Virus record (IMG/VR): IMGVR_UViG_3300012936_000076
Coordinates: 1-33,692 of that record
DNA: 33,692 nucleotides
Origin: a virus
Strand: one strand, 5' to 3'
The number at the start of each line of letters is the position of its first letter. Position 1 is the stretch's first letter. The position numbers were made by a program, and so were the translations under genes. The notes under the pieces are model-generated. The model ran no database searches. It was not told the origin of the DNA and saw nothing but the letters and a program-made list of their open reading frames with translations. Below are positions 16,106 to 33,692 of the stretch, in pieces.

Positions 16106-16708
16106 ATGTTATGGAAATTTGAAGCGTCAAATCTTTTAAAAGAATTTGAATTGTCTAACAACCCAGTTATTGTTACAGTCAATAAGTTTGACGAACAAGC
16201 TGCAGAAGATTTTAGAAATAAATTCTCTATGGCCCAAAATACTGGACAGAAAGTTGTTCCTGTTGTCATTGATTCATACGGGGGGCAAGTTTATTCTTTA
16301 ATGTCGATGATTTCAACAATTAGAGCTTGCCCACTTCCAGTAGCAACAATTGTTGAAGGAAAAGCAATGTCTTGTGGTGCTGTTCTTTTAACTTGCGGTA
16401 ACGAAGGCATGCGATTTATGGATCAAGACGCAACTGTTATGATCCACGATGTGGCATCAGGCCAGCACGGGAAAAACGAAGAAATTCAAGCATCAGCTGC
16501 AGAAACAGATAGACTTAACAAAAAGATATTTAGAATAATGGCAAGAAATTGTGGTAGACCTGATGATTACTTTCTTGAAGAAATACACAAGAGAGGACAT
16601 GCTGACTGGTTTTTAGAAGTTGACGAGTGTAAAACTATTGGTTTAGTAAATCATGCTAGACTTCCAAAACTAGAAGTAAAAATAGATGTAAGTATCGATT
16701 TTCAATAG
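16106..16708 (+). CDS. ClpP-like serine protease
   Basis: A 200-residue ClpP-fold protease. The catalytic triad can be read as Ser89 (KAMSCGAVLL), His114 (VMIHDVASG) and Asp167 (HADWFLEVDE). Spacing is close to E. coli ClpP (Ser97, His122, Asp171), and VIDSYGGQVYSLMSMI provides the oxyanion Gly-Gly. It has its own AGGAG site and lies at the end of the replication operon just before a terminator. No Clp ATPase is nearby, so it would use a host unfoldase, act alone, or mature capsid proteins; ClpP-fold enzymes act as prohead proteases in some phages. Being away from capsid genes argues mildly against the last option. Family membership is firm, substrate unknown. Confidence 0.85.
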   Translation: MLWKFEASNLLKEFELSNNPVIVTVNKFDEQAAEDFRNKFSMAQNTGQKVVPVVIDSYGGQVYSLMSMISTIRACPLPVATIVEGKAMSCGAVLLTCGNEGMRFMDQDATVMIHDVASGQHGKNEEIQASAAETDRLNKKIFRIMARNCGRPDDYFLEEIHKRGHADWFLEVDECKTIGLVNHARLPKLEVKIDVSIDFQ

Positions 16709-31931: not shown

Positions 31932-31960
31932 AAAATACTAACATAACAGTTAAAAACAGT

Positions 31961-31993
31961 CTCCTCGTGATAGTTATTCGCGAGGAGTTTTTT
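31961..31993 (+). terminator. Terminator-like hairpin containing the ribosome site of the next gene
   Basis: CTCCTCGTGA (31961-31970) pairs with TCGCGAGGAG (31978-31987) with one T-G wobble and a seven-base loop, followed by six T (31988-31993). It ends the transcripts of the nucleotide cassette. The 3' arm holds GAGGAG, the ribosome site for the ATG at 31994, so read-through RNA would hide that site. RNA starting inside the hairpin would expose it, as described for T4 gene e. Confidence 0.75.
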
Positions 31994-32731
31994 ATGAAAA
32001 TTACAAAGTCACAGCTACGAAGAATTATTGTCGAGTCAATCTTGAATGAAGACGGATACGAACAGATCATGTCAAGTTTAGGCGGAAAAAGAGACAACGG
32101 CCTTCTTGTCCCAGATGACGCTAACAAAGATGCTATACTTATTCACATGGCGGGAACATCGTACGGAATGGGAACAAGAAAGGACGGACGAGGAATTGGC
32201 ATGGAAAAGAACTCCATGGAAGGAATTGCAAAAGCCACCGGTAAAGATCTGTCTAAGAAAAACTACTATATCTGGAGAGGACTCTCTGAATACTGGGATT
32301 CTGGCATGACTAAACTTCCAGCATCTGGAAGAATGGGCGATCCTTACCTGTACATGCCTTCTTCGATCGGAAAAGATGGGTTTATTAACAAGGTGAGAGT
32401 TGTCGCAGGGCCACAAGCAAAAGCAATAGGTAGAACTATATCTGCTGATGCTTTGCAAGGAAAGCCTGCAAACTTAGCAGACATGGCGAAAGATCAACTT
32501 ATCGCACTGGGTGAACAAATTGCTGACTTTGTCAAAGAAGCTTACGATGCAGGTGTCGAAATGTCAGATGACGTTGAAAAGTTTGCTTCAAGAGTAGCTT
32601 CAAAATACTTAGGTGTTAAAGAGTCGACTGCTAGAAAATTTGTAAAATCATTTATTATTGGTGCTAGTTCACTCACAGGAATTGTAGGAATGGCAGCAAC
32701 AGCTGCGACCGTGTTACCTGATAGAAGTTGA
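31994..32731 (+). CDS. Unknown protein with QLRxIIVE N-terminal tag (putative injected/capsid protein)
   Basis: A 245-residue protein starting at ATG 31994, six bases after GAGGAG; an earlier in-frame start at 31967 would lie inside the terminator hairpin. Residues 1-16 (MKITKSQLRRIIVESI) match the start of the next protein in QLR-x-IIVE-x-I. I-V-E is a T4 gp21-type prohead protease site (I/L-x-E). The middle has Gly-rich and aromatic segments (DAILIHMAGTSYGMGTRKDG, NYYIWRGLSEYW) without a known family. The end (about 210-240) has a hydrophobic Ala/Gly/Ser stretch, FIIGASSLTGIVGMAATAAT, which could cross or disturb a membrane. It may be a packaged, injected protein; this is inference. Confidence 0.6.
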   Translation: MKITKSQLRRIIVESILNEDGYEQIMSSLGGKRDNGLLVPDDANKDAILIHMAGTSYGMGTRKDGRGIGMEKNSMEGIAKATGKDLSKKNYYIWRGLSEYWDSGMTKLPASGRMGDPYLYMPSSIGKDGFINKVRVVAGPQAKAIGRTISADALQGKPANLADMAKDQLIALGEQIADFVKEAYDAGVEMSDDVEKFASRVASKYLGVKESTARKFVKSFIIGASSLTGIVGMAATAATVLPDRS

Positions 32732-32740
32732 GACTTACTG

Positions 32741-33692
32741 ATGAAAGTGTCAAGAAAACAGCTGAGAAGCATTATTGTTGAAAATATTTTTAGCGATGCT
32801 TTCGAATATGTGAGTGATGCATTTTTTGGAGATTACACGCCTGGAGATGTAGTCACCACAGAATCAGAAGACCCTTTTGAATACAAAGAACAAGATGGTG
32901 GGTGGGTTTACAGAAAGAAAGATTCTGATAACACATGGAAAGCTGTAAACAGACAGGGCACTGCGAGGCTGAACAAGGTATTTAAAAAAGATCAAGACAA
33001 TTCGAAAGAAAGTAAAAAGACCGTGGGTCAGAACAATGAAGTGAGATCAGCCAGCGACGTCTACGGAGTTTTGGTTGAAAAAGGCATTATTGATGAAGGC
33101 GATACTTTGCTTTTAGTAGACGGTGTTAAACAAAAGTTTTATTTGAAAAGATCATCTTCAGGATCAGATATGTCTGGGCTAGTATCTACTGGCGTTAAAG
33201 GCTTCGGAAATAACAAAGGGTCAGGAAAGACTAGTACAGGTTTGATGAAAGTTGCAGGAATTGCTGGGAGAGGATTAGAAAAAGGCACAGTTTTACGTGG
33301 TAGAAAACCTACTCAGCCGAAGATTGTTCTTGGGCCTGTAACACCTGGTCCGAGAAAAGGGCACATAGCTGAAGTTTTATCAAGAGCAATAGTTCTTTCC
33401 GGTCTAGAAAATAAAAATACAAATGTCAGAGACAGAAATATTTATATCCACGGAACTAACAGAGAGCATAAACTAGGTAGTAGAGCGTCAGGTGGCTGTG
33501 TGAGAGTATCGAACAATAACGTGATTAAGCTTGCTGATAGCGAATTGAAAAACGGCGACTACGTTTACATATTTGATGGACCGGCTTCTGTTGTATCAAC
33601 TTTTAGAGGGTCAGTGTCCAATTTAATAGACAGAGGTCTTGAAATGGTCACTGAAGAGAGCTCAGACGCTCAGGAGCAAGAACCAAAAAACT
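32741..33692 (+). CDS. L,D-transpeptidase (YkuD-like) with QLRxIIVE tag, 3'-partial
   Basis: The frame is open from the ATG at 32741 to the window end (317 codons seen). Residues 1-16 (MKVSRKQLRSIIVENI) repeat the tag of the upstream protein. After a charged linker (about 20-100) comes the YkuD fold: LVSTGVKGFGNNKGSGKTST near residue 148, then IYIHGTN with His237 and RASGGCVRV with Ser250 and Cys253, the catalytic cysteine, and Arg255. The usual SHGC reads SGGC. L,D-transpeptidases form or alter 3-3 cross-links in peptidoglycan, or attach proteins to it. Placed in a virion and injected, it could reseal or reshape the host wall. The C-terminal part is cut off by the window end. It begins nine bases after the upstream stop. 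Confidence 0.85.
   Translation, partial: MKVSRKQLRSIIVENIFSDAFEYVSDAFFGDYTPGDVVTTESEDPFEYKEQDGGWVYRKKDSDNTWKAVNRQGTARLNKVFKKDQDNSKESKKTVGQNNEVRSASDVYGVLVEKGIIDEGDTLLLVDGVKQKFYLKRSSSGSDMSGLVSTGVKGFGNNKGSGKTSTGLMKVAGIAGRGLEKGTVLRGRKPTQPKIVLGPVTPGPRKGHIAEVLSRAIVLSGLENKNTNVRDRNIYIHGTNREHKLGSRASGGCVRVSNNNVIKLADSELKNGDYVYIFDGPASVVSTFRGSVSNLIDRGLEMVTEESSDAQEQEPKN

Follow-up and report, generated by a model that had tools for sequence, protein, structure and literature searches.

Two adjacent genes at the end of a viral genome fragment encode proteins with a shared N-terminal sequence (hereafter the tag). Very likely the tag directs cargo into the virus head, to be delivered to the next host, because it recurs on more than 100 unrelated proteins from large T4-like phages that are uncultured, and resembles the N-termini of products of head-assembly genes. 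The DNA analyzed here (the window, 33,692 nucleotides) is a complete 33.7-kb IMG/VR record and is itself a genome fragment. The two genes, ORF A and ORF B (Table 1), are adjacent and co-directional, with nine bases from the stop of A to the start of B. Their products begin with MKITKSQLRRIIVESI and MKVSRKQLRSIIVENI, and the first 16 residues of both fit MKx4QLRxIIVExI. The first-pass annotation, made from the sequence alone, had noted this start on two otherwise unrelated neighbors, with I-V-E at the same place in each. Both observations hold: the ORFs are real, each tag carries IVE14, and BLASTP of A against B returned as its sole match the N-terminal 31 residues (13/31 identical, E 1e-4), with nothing convincing outside them (remaining pieces E ≥ 0.087). 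A profile built from the tags of other contigs recovered A and B with the scores given in Table 1; among 9,900 shuffled N-termini scored as a null, the 99.9% point was 8.9 bits and the maximum 13.7.

Table 1. Coordinates of the tagged ORFs and their parts in the window, and of genes with a possible third tag in another locus.
Feature	Position	Strand	Remarks
ORF A	31994..32731	+	245 aa, ATG start, tagged
Tag of A, MKITKSQLRRIIVE	31994..32035	+	ends in the first [I/L]-x-E (I12-V13-E14), then Ser15; profile score 39.1 bits
Candidate second cut site of A, L17-N18-E19, then Asp20	32042..32050	+	retained in the L002/L003 homologue
ORF B	32741..33691	+	open at the window end, 317 aa visible; tag, linker module and YkuD L,D-transpeptidase domain
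Tag of B, MKVSRKQLRSIIVE	32741..32782	+	ends in I12-V13-E14, then Asn15; profile score 26.2 bits
YkuD domain of B (residues 124-275), with HGTNREHKLGSRASGGCVRV	33110..33565	+	Pfam match
Possible third-tag genes	L377:11813, 12907, 14732	reverse strand of locus	downstream of capsid gene

Beyond the tag, A had no PHROG match and none in Pfam above cut-off, BrxC_BrxD coming closest (E 0.0062; 15.9 bits, cut-off 22.2). Homologues of A with 84% identity occur in two other contigs (L002 and L003); this homologue starts MKISRSQLRRLIESAILNED, in which the first Glu is shifted to position 13 (LIE13, then Ser) and LNE19 is kept. Just 5' of the start codon of A lies a Shine-Dalgarno-like GAGGAG, contained in a 10-pair terminator-like hairpin followed by six T (31961-31987, z -5.6). 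AlphaFold models of both proteins were too poor for use (mean pLDDT 37.5 for A and 33.7 for B).

The YkuD domain of B (PF03734) was matched by Pfam with E 1.1e-10 and 42.7 bits, against a curated cut-off of 23.4. The sequence of B contains HGT...SGGCVRV, which may hold the catalytic His and Cys in the motif expected of YkuD. One related protein (L070) matches B over the first 85-98 residues and then diverges into another C-terminal part, and a YkuD protein with its own tag (L102) aligns with residues 84-281 of B at 42%; B is thus a modular protein in which the tag, a linker module and the YkuD domain follow one another. In the L070 protein, ILE14 is followed by Asn and IKE20 by Gly. Judged by eye, the N-terminus of B is the tag and not an evident signal peptide, and tag-type starts are present on three YkuD relatives, namely B, L102 and L004, the last with a tag of another type (MKYIITESQ). 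B therefore resembles YkuD L,D-transpeptidases in its domain match over the cut-off, two of its relatives being tagged as well, and differs from them in its N-terminal head-type tag and linker module. We speculate that a head-borne transpeptidase of this kind might gain access to the host wall or periplasm during entry.

A search for the tag in related phages, a check proposed in the first-pass annotation, found it on many unrelated proteins of large phages. The exact pattern MKx4QLRxIIxE is present in at least 120 stretches of IMG/VR, compared with seven in the whole collection for a permuted pattern of the same residues. Among the matches listed are 187 tagged ORFs; with the eight shorter than 60 aa left out, the 179 tagged proteins among these matches form 127 body clusters, defined by the lack of BLASTP similarity after residue 24. 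Few known domains were found when 80 of the 127 representatives were searched against Pfam, with one match each to a poly(A) polymerase head, YkuD, an AAA_33 kinase, HNH, a tRNA-ligase phosphodiesterase, EF-hand and PepSY. Two tagged proteins, at L101:10719-12341 (poly(A) polymerase head) and L090:794-1510 (P-loop AAA_33), are possibly pre-loaded RNA-repair or tRNA enzymes. Twenty-five records, 24 of them tag-bearing and one holding an A homologue, were chosen for closer analysis (all 21 contigs of at least 97 kb in the list for this first tag class, three below that length, and G001; the list also has several contigs of 75-92 kb that did not enter). They hold 114 exact matches, spread over 24 of the 25 and reaching 14 in one record; the pattern read backwards gave no match in the same 25 records. 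Tagged genes frequently stand in tandem.

Outside viral collections the pattern is scarce, with 23 stretches in 84,980 bacterial and archaeal genomes, and the multi-copy contigs among them belong to metagenome-assembled genomes and look like misbinned phage. Two such contigs carry many tags each: the 306-kb NHDW01000006.1 (L235, L243, L248 and L251), filed as Methylococcaceae TMED69, and the 101-kb PBIO01000025.1 (L238 and L242), filed as Halobacteriovorax. A tblastn search of the consensus peptide against 50,697 phage records returned one match, in the uncultured 484-kb LR756508, although so short a query may miss others. The tag was absent from all four named relatives with T4-like capsids (immuto, Mel-JY01, RM378 and T4). 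Literature searches by title and abstract start, with slight coverage of subscription papers, returned no description of such a tag, and the strings QLRRII, QLRQII, QLRKII, MKITKRQLR and MKITKSQLR did not occur in the literature text searched, where sequence strings are seldom printed.

The first-pass annotation had held that the lack of a prohead protease gene would speak against capsid targeting, and nearly all of the larger tag-bearing records encode one. Peptidase_S77 (the T4 gp21 family) was detected in 18 of the 19 tag-bearing records of at least 114 kb, and the Gp23 capsid gene in the same 18; the remaining one, the 154-kb G007, has neither. The six of the 25 records that are shorter than 100 kb gave no S77 match. 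As a base rate, Gp23 was found in none of three large contigs sampled. Two of the phages (G008 and G011, loci L168 and L170) each encode a tandem pair of complete capsid-protein genes. The window, a 33.7-kb fragment, contains neither a prohead protease gene nor a capsid gene; it does encode a ClpP-like protease (16106-16708, Pfam E 2.6e-28), distinct from the S77 prohead protease. A close relative, G028 (137,660 bases), was found via the window's untagged 926-aa structural protein (98% protein identity), and its DNA aligns with the window at 83-95% identity in six blocks, from window position 1 to 31934; the ClpP-like gene lies at 55549-56151 there. Since G028 encodes both S77 (E 1.6e-28) and Gp23 (E 1.6e-66), the window's lineage has a prohead protease. 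Relatives of the 926-aa structural protein are present in 17 of 27 records searched, and 16 of those 17 encode S77. In G028, 12 of 160 ORFs exceed the 99.9% null point of a tag profile made from other contigs, compared with 0.16 expected; the 12 include gene Y (see below), and one, at 114937, may be a false match. The capsid gene of G028 is followed, about 3 kb downstream, by three of the tagged genes (94110, 94537 and 94851).

The alignment between the window and G028 ends just before A, and G028 has a different tagged gene at this spot (38738, 274 aa). In L002 (10001-12637) the same spot holds the A homologue and another gene with a tag-like start. The spot from window position 31934 onward is a place where tagged genes come and go among relatives. 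In L002 and G028 it is bordered by a 150-aa gene on one side and by epimerase and DNA polymerase III alpha genes on the other.

A link to head assembly emerges from the genes between the protease and capsid genes. This stretch was taken from 17 records; in G010 the two genes are far apart. All 17 regions contain a gene, X (124-161 aa), immediately after the protease gene or one gene on, and its product starts, for example, with MAKITKRMLKGIVKECLVEILSEG or MAKMSRNQLKSLIKECLVEVLVEG, the usual tag being MKITKRQLRRIIKEE. Against the null of the tag profile, X scored above the 99.9% point in 11 of 17 regions and above the 99% point in 13; in the four below it the form is shorter or displaced (KKSELKNIIKEC and the like). 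Another gene, Y (e.g. MKLTSQLLKQIIMEEVAKF), exceeded the 99.9% point in 8 of 17 and the 99% point in 10, one of which (L172) is out of register. Both genes are present in G028. The other ORFs reaching the 99% point in these regions were L180:2463, which matches at residue 20, two clearly tagged genes that adjoin the cluster (L171:7446 and L183:136), and nine capsid proteins, of which one exceeds 99.9%. In T4 the corresponding place is occupied by the core genes 67, 68, 21 and 22, and by analogy of this position we infer that X and Y are prohead core proteins. The tag may then be a copy of the segment that lets X and Y enter the prohead core, a reading that offers a testable account of the signal's origin and binding partner. 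We also considered that the tag might be a helix that docks onto some other component of the phage or host (tail, replication complex or membrane), with no part in head loading. Many tagged genes do sit away from the head cluster, and the tag is predicted to be helical, in poor models only, but a docking helix would leave unexplained both the tag-like N-termini between the protease and capsid genes and the enrichment of [IL]-x-E without [IL]-x-D described below, and we regard it as improbable. An argument from an amphipathic helix was rejected: the moment of the consensus was not significant (7.7% of shuffles were as high), and A and B were ordinary.

Head loading by the tag would be followed by its removal, and the sequences carry the signature expected of a Glu-specific cut. 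According to PMC9026906, T4 gp21 cuts after L/I-x-E, capsid-targeting sequences (CTSs) are 10-19 residues long, and Asp as the last motif position blocks cutting and retains targeting. In the capsid proteins of the tag-bearing phages, L-[RK]-E followed by A, S, T or Q was found at residues 58-61 in all 20 aligned sequences (that of G010 did not fit the filter and was left out), adjoining a length-variable linker; T4 gp23 has LTE at 63-65, the known cut. In 14 of 17 regions X shows, at residues 22-27, an [I/L]-x-E with Gly or Ala as the next residue; the other three have IFE and then Glu at residues 20-28. To examine the tags themselves, 349 starts were chosen on residues 2-12 alone. Of these, 171 depart from the exact pattern within residues 1-12; Glu stands at residue 14 in 151 of them and Asp in 1. 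Of the 22 starts lacking Glu14, 20 contain a different [IL]-x-E somewhere in residues 1-30, which in 18 ends at residues 12-22. A second [IL]-x-E at residues 18-30 is present in 188 of the 349 tags, compared with 89.9 (sd 7.4) when residues 15-30 are shuffled, whereas [IL]-x-D at the same residues is not enriched (43/349 vs 46.5 in shuffles); these counts include related phages, and the contrast between Glu and Asp lies within the same sequences. Among 908 control ORFs (≥150 aa, same loci), 193 have [IL]-x-E. The second site was found in 131 of 202 tags with Glu15 compared with 21 of 78 with Ala, Ser or Gly15 (Fisher p 1e-8, a value too small because the counts include related phages). A Glu-specific protease that uses either a good first site or else a second one would be expected to leave such a pattern.

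It could also be argued that head loading is right and the tag uncut, [I/L]-x-E being merely part of a binding helix. Glu is favored in helices, and 112 of 167 tags (the 187 with very short and repeated starts removed) have Glu15, which would be unusual after a cut, the residue following a T4 cut being usually small. We nevertheless judge an uncut tag very improbable, considering that [IL]-x-E rises above a composition-keeping shuffle and [IL]-x-D does not, that small residues after the first site accompany loss of the second, and that nearly all tags lacking Glu14 have the alternative site noted above. The first-pass annotation placed the cut before residue 15; its exact position is uncertain, as many tags, that of A included, are followed by a second [I/L]-x-E.

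What is kept among the tags is the peptide, since codons vary freely at its invariant residues: six are used for Leu8, five for Arg9, and three each for Ile11 and Ile12. Conservation across the 167 tags is greatest at residues 2-14 and declines beyond. The tandem arrangement of many tagged genes would suit a shared start that is a relic of recent gene-start copying or a DNA or RNA signal for translation initiation, but this is the least probable of the alternatives, being ruled out as a nucleotide-level signal or recent copy by the codon variation and at odds with the 127 body clusters among the matches listed and with the fall in conservation after residue 14. Strong hairpins were found 5' of A, of its L002 homologue and of the L070 relative of B, and none 5' of B or of two tagged genes in G028. 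A late-promoter or hairpin signature was rejected, as neither strong hairpins nor TATAAATA-like motifs were enriched upstream of 346 tagged starts relative to 853 control ORFs.

The similarity to head-operon products, the company of S77 and Gp23, and the Glu-specific pattern make it highly probable that the shared N-terminus is a capsid-targeting propeptide. The tag would bind the core (scaffold) of the growing prohead, as X and Y are thought to do, and so draw A and B into the head. The S77 prohead protease would then remove it after [I/L]-x-E, at IVE14 in both proteins and perhaps at LNE19 in A. The trimmed bodies would remain with the DNA and be ejected into the next host, where B would deliver an L,D-transpeptidase.

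The closest known counterpart is the CTS of the T4 internal proteins IPI, IPII and IPIII. As PMC9026906 and PMC3012670 describe it, the T4 CTS is likewise a short N-terminal sequence common to otherwise different proteins, with an MK start and an [I/L]-x-E end; it too goes together with an S77 protease and a Gp23 capsid, and its cargo is likewise diverse and variable between relatives. The two nevertheless differ in sequence, the T4 CTS (MKTYQEFIAE) scoring -7.5 to -15.2 against the tag profile, which rules out homology, and the T4 core proteins gave no match to the profile either. The tag is also about 14-22 residues long and resembles the head-operon proteins X and Y, and it occurs in up to 14 exact copies per record, compared with three internal proteins named in the T4 stretches examined. 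Because sequence homology failed, we file the tag as an analogue and not as a member of the T4 CTS family; that it works like the T4 CTS while being unrelated in sequence is well supported. The capsid targeting proposed in the first-pass annotation is supported by the spread of the tag and by the S77 and Gp23 genes that accompany it. Propeptides of the giant phages phiKZ and SPN3US offer a further parallel, with many ejected head proteins processed by a gp21-like protease (PMC9026906); cutting there follows S/A-x-E, in contrast to [I/L]-x-E and a recognizable shared targeting sequence here.

Other phages carry other tags. A second, MKYIITExQ (e.g. L004:7091-7780; L253-L372), occurs in at least 120 stretches of IMG/VR, the permuted control existing for the QLR class only. 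Among the matches listed it starts 160 ORFs, of which 149 proteins of at least 60 aa form 51 body clusters. S77 was found in 18 of 24 long records with this tag, chosen from 80 of the matches listed. In six loci inspected (of eight), no MKYIITExQ-type N-terminus lies between the protease and capsid genes, so the likeness to core proteins is a result for the QLRxIIxE class. One phage of the second class has several different proteins right after its capsid gene with starts resembling ILNLHESATKxxYLxEQ, possibly a third tag (Table 1).

We see roughly even chances for a broader hypothesis, in which cargo loading in large uncultured T4-like phages follows an open-ended code: with a core-protein N-terminus at its front, any protein would be packed, trimmed and injected, amounting to an exchangeable pre-loaded arsenal of up to a dozen or more proteins per genome, and S77 phage groups would differ in the code used (QLRxIIxE here, MKYIITExQ elsewhere). 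If true, the arsenal would include cell-wall transpeptidases, a LysM protein, a poly(A)-polymerase-type enzyme, a P-loop kinase and many small proteins. Injected proteins are normally learned from virion proteomics of isolates. Should the tag prove to be a loading signal, sequence could be used to list what a large group of uncultured phages injects, and many unassigned families would become candidates for counter-defence or host takeover.
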